From positions 1-64,000 of the forward strand of contig NZ_JALKFX010000023.1 in the NCBI RefSeq assembly GCF_023243045.1: a DNA stretch of 64,000 nt, in the 5' to 3' direction. Shown piece by piece: positions 33,789 to 41,120 of this stretch. A program made the translations under genes and the position numbers. This DNA is from Frankia sp. AgB32. GTDB taxonomy: Bacteria > Actinomycetota > Actinomycetes > Frankiales > Frankiaceae. The notes under the pieces were generated by a model. That model worked only from the letters and a program-made list of their open reading frames with translations, made no database searches and was not told where the DNA came from. The first letter of the stretch is position 1. Every line of letters begins with the position of its first letter.

Positions 33789-34271
33789 TCAACCGTTGCG
33801 GAGCAACGCCGCGACGGACGCGGTGTTCTCCGGGGTCCCGACAACGACCACGATGTCGCCGGCGTCGAATCTGAAGTCGGGCCGCGGGGAGGCGTGCACG
33901 ACCTGGTCACGCACGACCGCCACGATGGACGCGCCGGTGCGGGTGCGGGCCCGGGTGTCGCCGAGCGGCCGCCCGGCGTACGGCGAGCTCGGGTCGATCG
34001 CGATCTGATCGCCGACAAGCCCGGCGAACGCACTGCTGATGTCCGCCAGCTTCTCGACGATGTGTGGCGCCCCGAGCAGCTCGGACAGCGCGTCGCTCTC
34101 CTCCGCGGTCAGCGTGACGCACTCGCCGACGGCGTCGCTGTCCTCCGCGTCGTACAGCACCAGGTCACGCCGGCCGTGATGACGGGACACCACCCCGATC
34201 CGCCGTCCGCTGCGGGTCTGGAAGTCGTGGCGCAGCCCGATCCCAGGCAGAGCCGTCTCCTCGATGTCCAC
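33789..34271 (-). CDS. KhtT-like RCK_C regulatory subunit (160 aa)
   Basis: Cytosolic gating subunit for the adjoining antiporter. The N-terminal domain VDIEETALPGIGLRHDFQTRSGRRIGVVSRHHGRRDL matches KhtT. The C-terminal half is an RCK_C (TrkA-C) domain (TRTGASIVAVVR, DAGDIVVVVGT) that in KhtT binds c-di-AMP and inhibits the transporter. GTG at 34271 gives the family start; an in-frame ATG/GTG at 34331 would add 20 residues without homology. Gene order KhtT then KhtU with a 21-nt gap supports an operon. Confidence 0.88.
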   Translation of the reverse strand: MDIEETALPGIGLRHDFQTRSGRRIGVVSRHHGRRDLVLYDAEDSDAVGECVTLTAEESDALSELLGAPHIVEKLADISSAFAGLVGDQIAIDPSSPYAGRPLGDTRARTRTGASIVAVVRDQVVHASPRPDFRFDAGDIVVVVGTPENTASVAALLRNG

Positions 34272-34985
34272 AGCCAACCCTCTCCGCACGCCGTCGTGCC
34301 TGCTCACCGGCAGGAAGCCCTGGTGAACCACCTTTGGTCACCCTAACCAACGCCCCACGCCCGACCATCGTTCGTGGTGATCCCGCCTGCCGCCTGGCCT
34401 CACCCCTACGAAACGGACCGGACTCTCAGCGAGGACAGCGGGGCTCGGCTCTCCTCGCGCGCGCCGTCGGAGCGCCGGCGACCGACCGCCCGTCCGCGCC
34501 GCACAGACGAACATCCAGCCCCGATCCGCGCCACGGTCATCCTCCGTCAAAATGAGGCACGACAAATCCCCATCGACGCAGAGCAGAGGCGACCCGATCT
34601 TCGCTTTCCGCGACCAGATGCCCGATTTATCCATGACGAACAATCGCACCTCCTGCGCCGGCACCGCACCGTCCGGTAACCCTGTCCGCGCCGACCGACA
34701 TCCCACCGAGACGGTCGCCGGGCGACGAGCGGATCGTCGGACCGCCCTGTTCGTCAACATGCGCCGTAGGTCGAGAATGATTCTGGCGACCCCGCGTCAC
34801 CGGCCGGCCGATCCACCGCGGCCAGGACGATGAGGCACGGGCACGGGCACGGCCACGCGGACCGAATGAACGCGGCGAGCCGACAGTTGACTTACCTCCG
34901 CGGTTCACCCGCGGCTACACTTCATGACGCATCATCCGGGAGCGCCGGATCGGCGTTCGGGGCCCGGCTTCACGGGGGTAGAAGT
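34272..34985. other. Intergenic region upstream of lipoprotein/TIR operon
   Basis: About 710 nt between divergent operons. No gene is supported; open frames lack homology. It includes a GGGCAC-type short repeat at 34838-34856 and the dyad at 34898-34914. Base composition from 34530 to 34630 is lower in G+C than its surroundings. Confidence 0.4.
34898..34914 (+). promoter_or_regulatory. Dyad CCGCGG-n5-CCGCGG before lipoprotein/TIR operon
   Basis: Two CCGCGG palindromes separated by TTCAC, flanked by TTGACT (34887-34892) and TACACT (34916-34921). The spacing of 23 nt is too long for a simple sigma-70 promoter, so the dyad is better viewed as a possible regulator site. It is about 70 nt before the chosen ATG. 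Confidence 0.3.
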
Positions 34986-36257
34986 ATGTCCGTCGTCCGT
35001 TCAGATGGAGTTCAAAGAAGTAGGCGTCACCGGCGGGAACCAACGAGCGGGACGGCGTACGAACCCCGACGGACCGACCCGCGCCGCCAGCTGAGGCGTC
35101 CACGGAGTTCCCCCTTGTCGGCTCGCCCTGGCCATGAGCTGCTAGCGCACGGACCGACGACGGGAATCCGACCGGGACGGACGGCCCGCCTGTTGCTCTC
35201 GATCCCGCTGGCCGGACTTCTCGCCGGCCTGGTCGGCGGATGCGCCGGCGCCGGAACAGGCTCCTCACCAGACGGCGGCGCAGCCCTGGAGGCGACAACG
35301 TCCGTCGTCTCCGGCCCGAGCGCGACAGAGCTTTCCGGACAGAATCCCGGCGGTGCGACGGGCACCCCAGGAGGCACCCCAGGAGGCACCCCCGGAGACA
35401 CCTCCGGAAGCCCCGGCGCAAGCACCGGCGGTAGTAGCCGGACAGACAGCGGTGGCGGGACGGGCGGCACCGGAACCGGCGGTGGCGGAGGTACCGGCGG
35501 AGGTACCGGCGGAGGTACCGGCGGAGGTACCGGCGGAGGTACCGGCGGAGGTACCGGCGGAGGCGGCGGTGGCAGCACCGGCGGAGGCGGCGGTGGTGGT
35601 GGAGGCGGTGGCGGTGGAGGCGGTGGCGGTGGCGGAGGCGGAGGCGGCGGGTCGCAGCAGATTCTGGTGGACACGCCGAGGACGAGGCCCTTCGAGTACG
35701 GCATGACCGTCGCTCTCAACGCACGGGCAAGTTCGGGGCTCCCGCTCACCTACGAGCGGGTTGAGGTCGGCGGCGCCCAGCAGGCCTGCCAGACGGTCCA
35801 GCCGAACGGTGTGGTGCCGATCGTGGGCCGCGGAAAGTGTCTGATCAGGATTTCCCAGGCTGGCAACGATTCGTTTCCACCGGTCACGAGAAGTGTCGAA
35901 TTCACGCTCGAAAGCGCGGTTACCCGTTACACCTGGCAGGGACCGGACACCAGCAGCGGCGAGGACTTCTACCTGACCGTCGCGCGCGCCAGCGGGTCGC
36001 TTGCCGCGGCGGTCAGGGTCACCGCGGGCCCCTGCGAACTCGATGCGCATGGGGAACGCCGAAAGGAGGCCACCTACCCCGATTTTACAGCGACGAGAGA
36101 CAGCGCCGGACTCCTGCGCAGTTACAGACTACACGGCTATGCGAACCTCGCCGGCGCAGCCCAGGTGACGTGTACGTTCGAACTCACGGCTGGCGATGAC
36201 GGGAACAGCCTCAACCTTCCCGAACCCCTGTACAAGACCGTCACGATCACTCCTTGA
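34986..36257 (+). CDS. Gly-rich Ig-like lipoprotein coupled to TIR-STAND gene (423 aa)
   Basis: Predicted secreted lipoprotein of unknown function. A basic region leads to a hydrophobic segment and lipobox (GLVGGC, cysteine at about 86 from this start). Then comes a spacer of Thr/Gly/Ser and a pure Gly/Thr tract of about 75 residues, encoded by six perfect 12-bp repeats (35484-35555) and a GGN-rich run to about 35650. The C-terminal 200 residues are beta-rich; CLIRISQAGNDSFPPVTRSVEFTL resembles the Ig-like repeat of bacterial surface proteins (C.v.a.QaGn..y..a..v..sftv). ATG at 34986 has GGGGG seven nt upstream; the signal part is far inside, so an internal TTG (35115) may be the true start. 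The stop overlaps the TIR gene start (TTGA). Confidence 0.75.
   Translation: MSVVRSDGVQRSRRHRREPTSGTAYEPRRTDPRRQLRRPRSSPLSARPGHELLAHGPTTGIRPGRTARLLLSIPLAGLLAGLVGGCAGAGTGSSPDGGAALEATTSVVSGPSATELSGQNPGGATGTPGGTPGGTPGDTSGSPGASTGGSSRTDSGGGTGGTGTGGGGGTGGGTGGGTGGGTGGGTGGGTGGGGGGSTGGGGGGGGGGGGGGGGGGGGGGGGSQQILVDTPRTRPFEYGMTVALNARASSGLPLTYERVEVGGAQQACQTVQPNGVVPIVGRGKCLIRISQAGNDSFPPVTRSVEFTLESAVTRYTWQGPDTSSGEDFYLTVARASGSLAAAVRVTAGPCELDAHGERRKEATYPDFTATRDSAGLLRSYRLHGYANLAGAAQVTCTFELTAGDDGNSLNLPEPLYKTVTITP
35484..35555. repeat. Six perfect 12-bp tandem repeats (GGCGGAGGTACC)
   Basis: In-frame repeats encoding Gly-Gly-Gly-Thr inside the lipoprotein linker, followed by a longer degenerate GGC/GGT run to about 35650. 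Twelve-bp units keep frame when copies are gained or lost, so linker length can vary without breaking the gene. Confidence 0.9.
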
Positions 36258-39200
36258 CGGCCACATCAGGTCCAGCGGCGGAAAGGCGCATCGATCCCGA
36301 CCGGTTCGACGTCTTTCTGTCCTACAACCGAGATGATGGCGATCTCGTGGCCGAGCTCGCGGCACATGCCCGGCACGCCGGGATGGCTGTCTGGTTCGAC
36401 CGGTGGCAGATCGCGCCGGGCGACCTCTGGCAGGCGAACATCGAGGCGGCGCTGTCGTCCAGCCGGTCGTGCGCCATTCTTGTCGGGCCGGCCGGGTTCG
36501 GCCGCTGGGAACGTGAGGAACTTCGGGCGGCGCTCATCAGGACGGTCGAAAGGCCGGCCGAGTTCCGCGTCTTCCCGGTGCTCCTTCCCGGCGTCGTCAC
36601 CCCGTTCGACGAGACCACCATGCCGCTGTTCCTGCGGTCGCGGGCCTGGCTCGATCTGCGGACGGGCCTCGGGCACCGGACGGGTCTCGCGCTGCGCGAC
36701 GCCGTCGACGGCACCCTCGCCCAGGACGGCCGGGCGAGCGCGCGGCGGCCCGCGGACAGCACCGGGATCAGCCCGTATCCGGGTCTGACCGGCTTCGACC
36801 AGGAGTCAGCACGTTTCTTCTTCGGCCGCGCCGCCGAGACTCAGCGGGTCCTCGAGGTGCTGCGCGGAGGTCGGTTCGTCGCGGTCGTCGGCGTTTCGGG
36901 CAGCGGGAAGTCCTCGCTCGCGCTCGCCGGCGTGCTGCCCGCGCTGGCCGCGCGGGCACTGCCCGGCTCGCACCGATGGCCGGTGCTGGTGCTGCGCCCC
37001 GGCGCGCTGCCGCTCGACACCCTGGCAGCGACGATGGCGGCCCACATGCCGGCCCTCGATCCGCTGGCGCTGCGCGACCAGCTCGCCGCCAGCCCGGAGA
37101 CCCTCCACCTGCGGCTGATGACGATGCTGGCCGGGCCGGCCGCGCCCGGCGGCGTCCTGCTGGTCGTCGATCAGTTCGAGGAGGCACTCACGGCCGGCCT
37201 GGGAGCGGCGGAGTTCGTCGCGAGTCTCGCGCACGCGGCCACCGTCGAGGGCGGACCCGTCCGGGTTCTGCTCACGATGCGCGCGGACTTCTATTCCCGC
37301 GCCGCCGACTTTCCCGCCCTGTCCGGACTCCTCGTCGCGAGGCAGTTCCTACTGGGGCCGATGAAACGGGAGAAGCTGCGCGAGGCGATCGTGGGACCGG
37401 CCGCGCTGTGCGAGCTCGAGTTCTCGGCGACGCTGGTCGAGACCATTCTCGACGACGCCGGCACCGAGGCCGGCGCGTTGCCGCTGATGCAGCACGCCCT
37501 GCGTCGGCTGTACGAAAGGCGCTCGGGCAGTGTCCTGACCCTCGCGGCCTATCGGGAGATCGGCCGCGTCGATGGTTCGCTGGCACTGCATGCCGACGGG
37601 ATCCTGGCCGGCCTCACCGAGAGCCAGCGCCGCGCCGCCCGCGGCGTCCTGCTGCGGCTGACAGCGGTCGGCGACGGCACCGGCGACACCCGGCGCCGCC
37701 TGCACCCGCCGGAGCTGGTGACCACCTCCGGCGGCCCGGCGGAGGTCGCCGAGGTGATCCGCGTGCTGGTCGACGCGCGCCTGCTCACCGCCGGCACCGA
37801 GCCGACCGGCGGCGCGGCCACCCTGGAGATCACGCACGAGGCGCTCATCCGGCACTGGCCGGTCCTGCGGGCGTGGGTGGACGACGACCGGGCGGGGCAT
37901 CGGCTGCGCGAGCAGCTCACCGGCGCGACCAAGGAGTGGGTTGCCGCCGGCGAGGAGCCGGGCCTGCTGTTCGGCGGAACCCGTCTGGCTGTCCTGCTCG
38001 CCTGGTCGCAGGACCATCCCGGTGATCTGACCGGGACGGAGTCCCGTTTCCTCACCGCGAGCGTCGCGGCGCGGGAACGCGTCCAAGCGCAGGAGCGGCT
38101 TGTGCGCGAGGAGCGCCGTCGCCACCGCGAACGTGTTCGCCTGGCGATCGGCGCGACGGTGGTGCTGACCATCGCGGCGCTGGTGGGGGCCACGTTCGGA
38201 CTGATTGCCCAGAGTCAGAAGCGGGACGCGGACCGCCAGCGGACGTTGACGCGGTCGGTGCAGCTCGCCGCGCAGGCGGACGAGCTGCGCGCCAGCCGGC
38301 CGGATCTCGCGGCGGTGCTCGCGGTCGAGGCCAACGCGATCTCGCCGACGATCGAGGCCCGCGGCAGCCTGCTCAACACGGTGGCGCAGACCCCCGGGCT
38401 GGTCCGCGTCCTGCGGCCCACCTCGCCGGCGTCCGGCGCCCTCACCGTCGACGTGGCCGGCGACCTGCTCGCCACCGCGTCCCAGGACCATTCGATCAGC
38501 CTGTGGCGCCCGGCCACCGGCCAGCTGGTCACCGGGCCCCTGGCCGGGCACGACGCGCCTGTCGTCGGCATCGGCGTCGACGGCGCGGCGGCCCGGATGA
38601 CAAGTGTCGACCTGCGGGGTCGGCTGCTCGTGTGGGACCTGCACACGTTCGCCGCCCACCAGGCGGGCGGCCTGCGACACCCGGTGTCCGTGGCGACACC
38701 GTCGCCGGACGGGCGGACGCTCGCCGTCGCGACGGACGCGAGCGACGTCCTCGTCGTGAACGTGGACGACGGCGCGCTCATCCGGTCCTGGCCGCCGGCC
38801 GGTCGCCCGGTCACCGCGCTGGCGTTCACGCTGGACGGGCAGTCGCTCGCCGTCGGCGACACGGCGGGGATGGTCACCACGCTGTCGCTGGTCGAACCGG
38901 ACCGGCGCACGGCCCCCGCCCCGGTCGGCGCGTCCTCCCGGATCACCGCGCTCGCGTTCAGCCCCGACGGTGGGACCCTCGCCGCGGCCGCGGACGACCG
39001 CGCGGTCCACCTCTGGGACACCGCGGCCGCCCGCCCACGTTCCGACCCGATGTCCGGGCATCGCCGCGACCTCACCGCCATCGCCTATCTGCAGCAGCGT
39101 CCCGACCCCACGACCGGGGTCGCGCCCGGCCCGCTGCTGCTGACCGCCAGTACCGACCAGGCCCTCGGCGTCTGGGACGGGACGTTCCAGACGCCCGGGG

Positions 39201-40321
39201 CCCGCTTCCTCGCCGGACAGCAGGACGCGATCCTTGGCCTGGCCACGTCCGACGCGGGTGTGGTCGCGACGGCGGGACGCAACGGAACGATCGCGCTGTG
39301 GGACGTGACCGGCCATCCCACGCTCGCGCGGGCGCTGGTCGGACATCAGGCCGCCGTCAGCGCCGCCGTCTACAGCCCGGACGGCCGGCTGCTCGCGAGC
39401 GCCGACTACGCCGGCCGGCTGCTACTGCGGGACGCACGGACCGCCGCGGTCATCCGGGTCGTCGTCGAGGGCGGTCCGCCGGTGAGCGCGCTGGCCTGGA
39501 CGCCGCGCGGGCAGCGGCTGATCGTCGGGTACGTCACCGGCGCGGGCCGCCTGCTCGACGTCACCGGCGTGCCGCGCGCGAGCTGGCGCGGCACCGGGAA
39601 CGGGCAGGTCGTCGATCTCGCCGCGGGCGCCGACGGGCGCGTCCTCGTCGTGGCCACCAGCGCCGGCTTCGAGATCCGATCCGTGGCTGACGGCAGCCTC
39701 ATCCGCCAGATCCACACGACGCCGCTGGCCGGCATGGCATTGCGGCCTGACGGGGCGGTCCTGGCCGCCGGCGGAGAAGACGCCACGGTCACGCTCTGGA
39801 ACGTCATGACCGGGCGGCGTCTCGCGGCACCGCTGATCGGCCATGGGCTGCGCGTGCCCGCTCTCGCCTTCAGCCCCGACGGTGCCACCCTGGCCACCGG
39901 CAGCGACGACCAGAAAATCATTCTGTGGGACCCGTCCGCGCACGCCATGCTGGCCGAGCTCCGGGCCCACACCGACCAGGTGTGGGGGCTGACGTTCCGA
40001 GCCGACGGACGAGTGCTGGCCTCCGCGAGCGAGGACGACACGATCGTTCTCTGGGACGTCGCGAGCCGGCGCCCCATCGGCAGGCCCCTGCGCTACGGCG
40101 ACGACCGGACTGACCATTTCGCGCTCCGCGTGCAGTTCCGGGCGGACGGCCGGGCGCTGATCTCCCACATCGGCACCGACCTCGTCCTGTGGAACACCGA
40201 TGAGCGGCAGTGGCCGGGCCTGGCCTGTTCGCTGGCCGCGCGGCCGCTGTCCGCGGCGGAGGGACGACAGTACCTGCGTGGCGGCTCCGCGACGGCCTGC
40301 CTGTCCCCCGCCCGCCGCTGA
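36254..40321 (+). CDS. TIR - STAND NTPase - TM - WD40 protein (1355 aa)
   Basis: Large multidomain signalling protein. Residues 17-150: TIR domain (FDVFLSYNRDDGDLVAELA, WFDRWQIAPGDLW, and W-E-R-E-E in the region where NADase TIRs keep the catalytic Glu). Residues 172-620: nSTAND1-type NTPase with YPGLTGFDQESARFFFGR, Walker A VGVSGSGKSS (about 211-220), Walker B VLLVVDQFEEAL (about 300-311), MRADFYS, and a winged-helix region ending in THEALIRHWPVLRAW. One membrane helix at about 629-655 follows a very basic stretch. From about 715 on there are about eleven WD40-like repeats with recurring D(.)(T/A)(I/V).LWD. The TTG start overlaps the lipoprotein stop, so the genes are coupled. TIR-STAND proteins act in antiphage and cell-death signalling; the role here is inferred, not shown. 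Confidence 0.92.
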   Translation: MTATSGPAAERRIDPDRFDVFLSYNRDDGDLVAELAAHARHAGMAVWFDRWQIAPGDLWQANIEAALSSSRSCAILVGPAGFGRWEREELRAALIRTVERPAEFRVFPVLLPGVVTPFDETTMPLFLRSRAWLDLRTGLGHRTGLALRDAVDGTLAQDGRASARRPADSTGISPYPGLTGFDQESARFFFGRAAETQRVLEVLRGGRFVAVVGVSGSGKSSLALAGVLPALAARALPGSHRWPVLVLRPGALPLDTLAATMAAHMPALDPLALRDQLAASPETLHLRLMTMLAGPAAPGGVLLVVDQFEEALTAGLGAAEFVASLAHAATVEGGPVRVLLTMRADFYSRAADFPALSGLLVARQFLLGPMKREKLREAIVGPAALCELEFSATLVETILDDAGTEAGALPLMQHALRRLYERRSGSVLTLAAYREIGRVDGSLALHADGILAGLTESQRRAARGVLLRLTAVGDGTGDTRRRLHPPELVTTSGGPAEVAEVIRVLVDARLLTAGTEPTGGAATLEITHEALIRHWPVLRAWVDDDRAGHRLREQLTGATKEWVAAGEEPGLLFGGTRLAVLLAWSQDHPGDLTGTESRFLTASVAARERVQAQERLVREERRRHRERVRLAIGATVVLTIAALVGATFGLIAQSQKRDADRQRTLTRSVQLAAQADELRASRPDLAAVLAVEANAISPTIEARGSLLNTVAQTPGLVRVLRPTSPASGALTVDVAGDLLATASQDHSISLWRPATGQLVTGPLAGHDAPVVGIGVDGAAARMTSVDLRGRLLVWDLHTFAAHQAGGLRHPVSVATPSPDGRTLAVATDASDVLVVNVDDGALIRSWPPAGRPVTALAFTLDGQSLAVGDTAGMVTTLSLVEPDRRTAPAPVGASSRITALAFSPDGGTLAAAADDRAVHLWDTAAARPRSDPMSGHRRDLTAIAYLQQRPDPTTGVAPGPLLLTASTDQALGVWDGTFQTPGARFLAGQQDAILGLATSDAGVVATAGRNGTIALWDVTGHPTLARALVGHQAAVSAAVYSPDGRLLASADYAGRLLLRDARTAAVIRVVVEGGPPVSALAWTPRGQRLIVGYVTGAGRLLDVTGVPRASWRGTGNGQVVDLAAGADGRVLVVATSAGFEIRSVADGSLIRQIHTTPLAGMALRPDGAVLAAGGEDATVTLWNVMTGRRLAAPLIGHGLRVPALAFSPDGATLATGSDDQKIILWDPSAHAMLAELRAHTDQVWGLTFRADGRVLASASEDDTIVLWDVASRRPIGRPLRYGDDRTDHFALRVQFRADGRALISHIGTDLVLWNTDERQWPGLACSLAARPLSAAEGRQYLRGGSATACLSPARR

Positions 40322-40601
40322 CGGCCGGAAGCGGTCCAGGTCACGATGCCGACCGGGGATGGCGGCCACGAATGGGCGGTGTTCGGCGTTGCTACGGGGT
40401 AGGAGAGCTGACGCCCGTCACGATCACCCGCTTCGGCGGGGTCCGGCTGCGCTGGGACCGCAGTCGGGTTCACCGGTCCGAGGGGCGCCGCGAGACACCG
40501 GGTTCCCGGCGCCGACCGCCACGCCCAGTCCTCGCGGCCCCGGCCGGGTGGTCGGCCGCGCGGCGTCCCGCGCCGCCGTACGCAGGGGAGAGTCGCGCGA
40601 G

Positions 40602-41120
40602 GTGTTGAACGCAGGTACCCGGCTGTTGCGCCGGATTGTCGTGACCGTGCTGGGCGTGGTGATCCTCGGCGTCGGCATCGCGATGCTCGTGCTGCCCGGA
40701 CCGGGGTTCCTGGTGGTGGCGCTCGGCTTCTTCGTGCTGAGCCTGGAGTACGAGTGGGCCCGCAGCCGGTTCGAGAAGGCCCGGCAGAAGGCCGCGGACC
40801 TCGCCGACCAGGCGGCCGCGAAGCCGCTGTACTCGGTGTTCACGATCCTGTTCGGCCTCGCCATGGTGGCGGCGGGCGTCGTGTGGATCGTCGTCGACAC
40901 GCTGCCCGCGTCGTCGCCGTGGTCGGGGGGGAGCATCATCTTCAGCGGCCTGGTCGTCCTCAGCACGATGATCGTGAGCCTGTGGCAGGCGCGGCAGGCC
41001 CGCGCCGCCGGCCAGCCCACGCCGGCCGAGCTCATCGAGCGGCGCCAGCAGGCGGAACACACGGAAAGCGCGGAACACACGGAAAGCACCGGGCCCGGCC
41101 GACCGGCCGCCGGGCCCTGA
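40602..41120 (+). CDS. PGPGW/TIGR02611-type membrane protein (172 aa)
   Basis: Small actinobacterial membrane protein with the motif VLPGPGFLVVALGFFVLSLEYEWA, typical of the TIGR02611/PGPGW family. Two helices (about 10-50) are followed by a charged cytosolic loop (SRFEKARQKAADLADQAA) and two more helices (about 85-130). The C-terminus has a tandem AEHTES repeat. GTG at 40602 fits the family start. Function unknown. The 280 nt before it show no gene. Confidence 0.82.
   Translation: MLNAGTRLLRRIVVTVLGVVILGVGIAMLVLPGPGFLVVALGFFVLSLEYEWARSRFEKARQKAADLADQAAAKPLYSVFTILFGLAMVAAGVVWIVVDTLPASSPWSGGSIIFSGLVVLSTMIVSLWQARQARAAGQPTPAELIERRQQAEHTESAEHTESTGPGRPAAGP

Follow-up and report, generated by a model that had tools for sequence, protein, structure and literature searches.

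The 64,000-nucleotide stretch of Frankia sp. AgB32 analysed here (the window; contig NZ_JALKFX010000023.1 of a 6.68 Mb genome in 274 contigs, G000) carries a real, coupled and mobile two-gene unit, in which a gene for a predicted lipoprotein directly precedes one for a protein joining TIR, nSTAND1, transmembrane (TM) and WD40 parts, and which is best read as an outward-facing receptor with a lipoprotein partner. The features of the unit, in window positions, are as follows.

34378..40327, no strand: insert made up of nothing but the gene pair and roughly 600 bp ahead of it (approximate, relative to the nearest genome, G006)
34986 (ATG)..36257 (TGA), forward: predicted lipoprotein gene, 423 aa from the ATG at 34986
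35178..35243, forward: hydrophobic segment and lipobox LVGG-C of the lipoprotein (Cys codon 35241-35243; hydrophobicity 2.05 over 17 aa)
35430..35654, forward: Gly-rich flexible linker of the lipoprotein, read from the sequence
35658..36254, forward: lipoprotein ectodomain, kept in F. tisae and F. torreyi; Ig-like domain, then a second beta-rich domain
36254 (TTG)..40321, forward: TIR-nSTAND1-TM-WD40 protein, 1355 aa; the TTG start overlaps the lipoprotein stop
36311..36667, forward: TIR domain (Pfam TIR_2 PF13676, aa 20-138, E 3e-20)
36518..36520, forward: E89, predicted catalytic Glu in a WxxxE motif that aligns to AbTIR WTNYE
36773..37960, forward: nSTAND1 NTPase domain with P-loop GVSGSGKSS (PF20703, aa 174-569, E 2e-113)
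38153..38209, forward: single transmembrane helix, aa 634-652 (hydrophobicity 2.21 over 19 aa)
38441..40213, forward: WD40 region, about 14 blades (two propellers) modelled, predicted extracytoplasmic (strong Pfam WD40; AlphaFold model)
40226..40300, forward: C-terminal cysteine pair C1325 and C1349, invariant in three homologues

The original prediction of a coupled unit, made from a TTGA shared by the lipoprotein stop and the TIR-gene start, holds: the overlap is present, and the two genes are conserved and inserted jointly. Homology to G006 ends at 34377 and restarts at 40328, and the intervening insert of about 5.95 kb, which replaces about 65 bp, ends 6 bp beyond the TIR stop. The pair is flanked in the window by TrkA_C (33789-34331) and PGPGW (ending at 41120), which lie adjacent without the pair in 11 of the other 12 Frankia genomes (among them F. 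tisae and F. torreyi); for the twelfth (G012), the stretch compared was too short for the site to be read. No other recognisable defence genes were seen beside the pair. When 13 Frankia genomes were searched with each protein on its own, both searches pointed to the window genome, F. tisae and F. torreyi and to no other; the closest homologous loci are those of strains Agncl-8 (F. tisae) and CpI1 (F. torreyi). These three genomes alone contain the lipoprotein ectodomain, always with a full-length TIR protein and with the two genes adjacent (3/3), and the pair occupies a different neighbourhood in each; in F. torreyi and F. tisae, the ATG of the TIR gene lies 9-10 bp past the lipoprotein stop. 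A comparison of F. tisae with F. torreyi gives an identity of about 76% for the folded parts of each protein and shows purifying selection on both (dN 0.16 and dS 0.90 for the lipoprotein ectodomain; dN 0.12-0.18 and dS 0.82-1.05 for the TIR protein). This selection, the conservation of the pair and its presence as a unit at different sites show the association of the two genes to be more than chance.

The predicted lipoprotein, for which an alternative earlier in-frame ATG lies at 34830, runs from a basic N-terminal stretch through a hydrophobic segment and a Gly-rich linker to two beta-sandwich-like domains. In all three homologues, some 65-70 aa separate the hydrophobic segment from the best start codon, leaving a long N-terminal stretch ahead of it; the lipobox reads LVGGC in the window, and ICGAC and LCGAC (with Cys at -3) in the two homologues from F. 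tisae and F. torreyi. The protein had been described as an Ig-like lipoprotein, of which "Ig-like" fits the first ectodomain domain, with a second beta-rich domain following it, and "lipoprotein" is plausible but not clean as judged from sequence, the lipobox being good in the window alone and imperfect in the two homologues. The window ectodomain contains exactly four cysteines, two per domain and all invariant across the three homologues. Its structural model (mean pLDDT 71, with a weak second half) contains two beta-rich domains and has modest-scoring matches to tandem bacterial Ig-like and cadherin domains; a Pfam search matched the lipoprotein to no family. When genome contigs, viral contigs and plasmids were scanned by pattern, relatives of the lipoprotein turned up in F. 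tisae and F. torreyi alone, and matches to its profile elsewhere in the class mostly span just the common Ig-like first domain. Within the Gly-rich linker (window 35430-35654) there is a short tandem repeat of GGCGGAGGTACC units, the length of which may vary from strain to strain.

The second gene encodes, as originally predicted, a 1355-residue protein with TIR and nSTAND domains and one membrane helix: the open reading frame begins at the expected TTG, and Pfam and hydrophobicity agree with the domain assignments (the nSTAND1 match scores 380 bits against a cut-off of 27, with the P-loop present). The sole other start codon near the N-terminus, a GTG at 36347, lies within the TIR domain. Absence of the TIR catalytic Glu had been named as a reason to doubt the proposal; in a sequence alignment to solved TIR NADases, the residue is present as E89, with 3h16, 7uxr and AbTIR 8g83 among the relatives of solved structure. 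A Glu occupies the WxxxE position in 30 of the 35 TIR-nSTAND1 proteins surveyed below and is absent from the aligned TIR column of the G018 homologue; judging by its family, the TIR domain would be expected to cleave NAD. The TM helix between nSTAND1 and WD40 is common to the window protein and both homologues. Beyond it, the proposed count of about eleven WD40 repeats should be revised, since the AlphaFold model of this part (mean pLDDT 73) has 54 strands, suggesting about 14 blades in two seven-bladed propellers, and matches tandem seven-bladed WD40 proteins including AIP1, with Apaf-1 lower in the list.

Membrane topology was considered across 50 nSTAND1-TM-WD40 proteins, which are related, so that the following charge and cysteine counts are not independent: net charge averages +4.9 before the TM helix and +1.2 after it (46/50 in that direction), an even cysteine count is found in 90% of WD40 parts and in 46% of STAND parts, and 49 of the 50 have exactly two cysteines within their last 75 aa. 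The window protein has the cysteine pair and shows no charge bias (+3 and +3 on either side of the helix). Taken together, the charge bias of the class, its cysteine parity and the four invariant lipoprotein cysteines favour a WD40 part lying outside beside an outside partner. The conserved C-terminal cysteine pair and the even cysteine counts behind the helix suggest that the WD40 part lies outside the cell in the whole nSTAND1-TM-WD40 class of Frankiaceae (for example, at L119, L130, L173, L180 and L192). With a WD40 part predicted on the outer side of the membrane, an outside partner role for the lipoprotein becomes reasonable, an argument absent from the original prediction.

nSTAND1 proteins are abundant in Frankiaceae, and we surveyed 79 such ORFs (35 with TIR and 44 without) at loci drawn nearly all from 35 Frankiaceae genomes. 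A lipoprotein gene overlaps or lies at most 15 bp upstream of five of the 35 TIR-nSTAND1 genes and none of the 44 nSTAND1 genes without TIR. Conservation of an upstream lipoprotein among homologues, as envisaged in the original prediction, thus applies to the close family (3/3) and fails as a general rule: 30 of the 35 TIR-nSTAND1 genes in Frankiaceae have no coupled lipoprotein, and the lipoprotein is therefore an optional partner of some lineages. Outside the close family, a TIR-nSTAND1-TM-WD40 gene of G018 overlaps an upstream lipoprotein gene and one of G002 is separated from its own by a 15-bp gap; neither of these lipoproteins has evident similarity to that of the window or a Pfam match. 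The five coupled genes fall in three places on the STAND tree (a quick-version tree), forced by well-supported branches, and lipoprotein coupling arose as three independent pairings, none among the 44 genes without TIR. Counted as independent pairings, the difference between TIR and non-TIR genes (3/33 versus 0/44, p 0.07) is not significant alone. As a background, 588 genes were called from loci around STAND and TrkA_C genes with a rough caller, which failed to pick up the window pair; 476 had a neighbour and two had a coupled upstream lipoprotein, namely those of G018 and G002. At such a background rate, chance would rarely produce three pairings (p below 0.005). L179 was considered as a non-TIR lipoprotein pair and rejected, since the start of its STAND gene is about 800 bp farther along.

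We hypothesize, at roughly an even chance, that the pair is a mobile two-gene conflict module acting as a membrane-spanning, outward-facing receptor with a lipoprotein partner. The outward-facing receptor is the best-supported part of this proposal, and we infer its immune role and the action of the lipoprotein. The TIR and nSTAND1 domains would lie in the cytoplasm and the WD40 propellers outside, beside a lipoprotein whose two beta-sandwich domains, probably disulfide-bonded, would be carried on the Gly-rich tether. The lipoprotein might bind an external cue (a molecule from a competitor, or a product of phage or envelope damage) and present it to the propellers; the signal would then pass through the TM helix and cause the nSTAND1 domains to assemble, whereupon the clustered TIR domains could cleave NAD+ and either stop the cell or make a signal molecule. 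The sequences are best read as indicating that the lipoprotein partner is interchangeable among lineages. Counted against the receptor are the equal charges in the window protein, the 30 of 35 relatives lacking a coupled lipoprotein, the imperfect lipobox of F. tisae and F. torreyi, the long N-terminal stretch, the lack of other recognisable defence genes beside the pair and the G018 homologue lacking the Glu. More broadly, and with a probability somewhat below even, actinobacterial nSTAND1-TM-WD40 proteins may constitute a large outward-facing class of NLR-like receptors, with propellers out, TIR or another effector in and exchangeable lipoprotein co-receptors in several lineages; such a layout would be nearer to an animal Toll-type receptor than to bacterial cytosolic STAND sensors. 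Bacterial STAND defence proteins, at least the best-studied ones, detect phage proteins within the cell; a STAND-TIR receptor with sensor and partner outside would let a bacterium respond at its envelope, and the pair, if outward-facing, would provide a concrete two-gene system for testing transmembrane activation of a TIR NADase.

The abundance of nSTAND1 proteins in Frankiaceae, the link drawn between such systems and a multicellular habit (PMC7159879) and the outward-pointing topology would also suit a coupled but non-immune pair that senses envelope or cell-cell signals in the filamentous life cycle, with a TIR-made messenger directing development or programmed compartment death; we consider this unlikely, however, because a patchy distribution, varied insertion sites and the existence of empty sites are more in keeping with accessory conflict genes than with core development. 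A distinctly unlikely arrangement, in our judgement, is a guard-type switch in which the lipoprotein blocks the propellers at rest and the TIR domain is freed once the lipoprotein is lost, cleaved or captured by a phage or toxin: coupling would hold the two proteins in step, the partner gene comes first and the unrelated ectodomains of the three lineages could be different guarded baits, but most relatives live without a lipoprotein. Their number would also accord with a TIR protein that works alone beside an unrelated surface gene carried by chance; we regard this as improbable given the joint conservation at three sites, an insert limited to the two genes and three independent couplings with almost none in the background.

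A search of mainly open-access literature found no report of a TIR-STAND-WD40 protein with a coupled lipoprotein, and none of the system models in PADLOC-DB 2.0.0 matched along the protein, the matches being partial ones to TIR or repeats. Among described designs, the EACC1 two-gene membrane system (2020, PMC7159879, System 4) comes nearest; it is likewise an actinobacterial unit, with a single-TM membrane protein encoded by the 5' gene and, in the 3' gene, an enzymatic effector fused to domains among which STAND NTPases and repeats may occur. The present 5' protein, however, is a larger predicted lipoprotein with a beta-rich ectodomain and without an EACC1 match in the Pfam search (the EACC1 model being assumed to be among the Pfam models), and the 3' effector is TIR whereas the EACC1 system has a caspase or cyclase. 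nSTAND1 was defined in counter-invader proteins (PMC8195603), and a study of DGR-linked nSTAND1 proposed a periplasmic placement for some STAND-linked sensors (PMC10907252); the proteins of both studies share with ours an N-terminal effector, the nSTAND1 NTPase and a C-terminal sensor, but in the window protein no effector-associated death-like domain was found, the sensor is a predicted WD40 double propeller behind a TM helix and there is a lipoprotein partner. The order of effector end, STAND NTPase and modelled tandem WD40 propellers as sensor also resembles the Apaf-1 apoptosome, in which WD40 repeats take the activating ligand (PMC7159879), with nSTAND1 in place of the AP-ATPase, TIR in place of CARD and a TM helix between NTPase and propellers. 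The catalytic Glu position is shared with the bacterial TIR NADase AbTIR (8g83) and the TIR protein 3h16, whereas the TIR relatives found with solved structures are not fused to a membrane STAND receptor.

Several related loci were noted in passing. In G018, a small separate TIR gene (L119 7417-8178) directly follows the lipoprotein-TIR-nSTAND1-WD40 pair, and a relative in G005 (L118 2922-7349) has two TIR domains ahead of nSTAND1 and WD40, with no upstream lipoprotein and no clear TM helix. The TIR-nSTAND1-TM protein closest to that of G018 (L120/L126, on contig C131 of G007) ends in what looks like a formylglycine-generating-enzyme-type domain in place of WD40, with a possible ORF for a TM protein about 220 bp ahead of it. 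The window genome itself contains 28 TIR_2 domain matches, several of them clustered on contigs C33 and C245.
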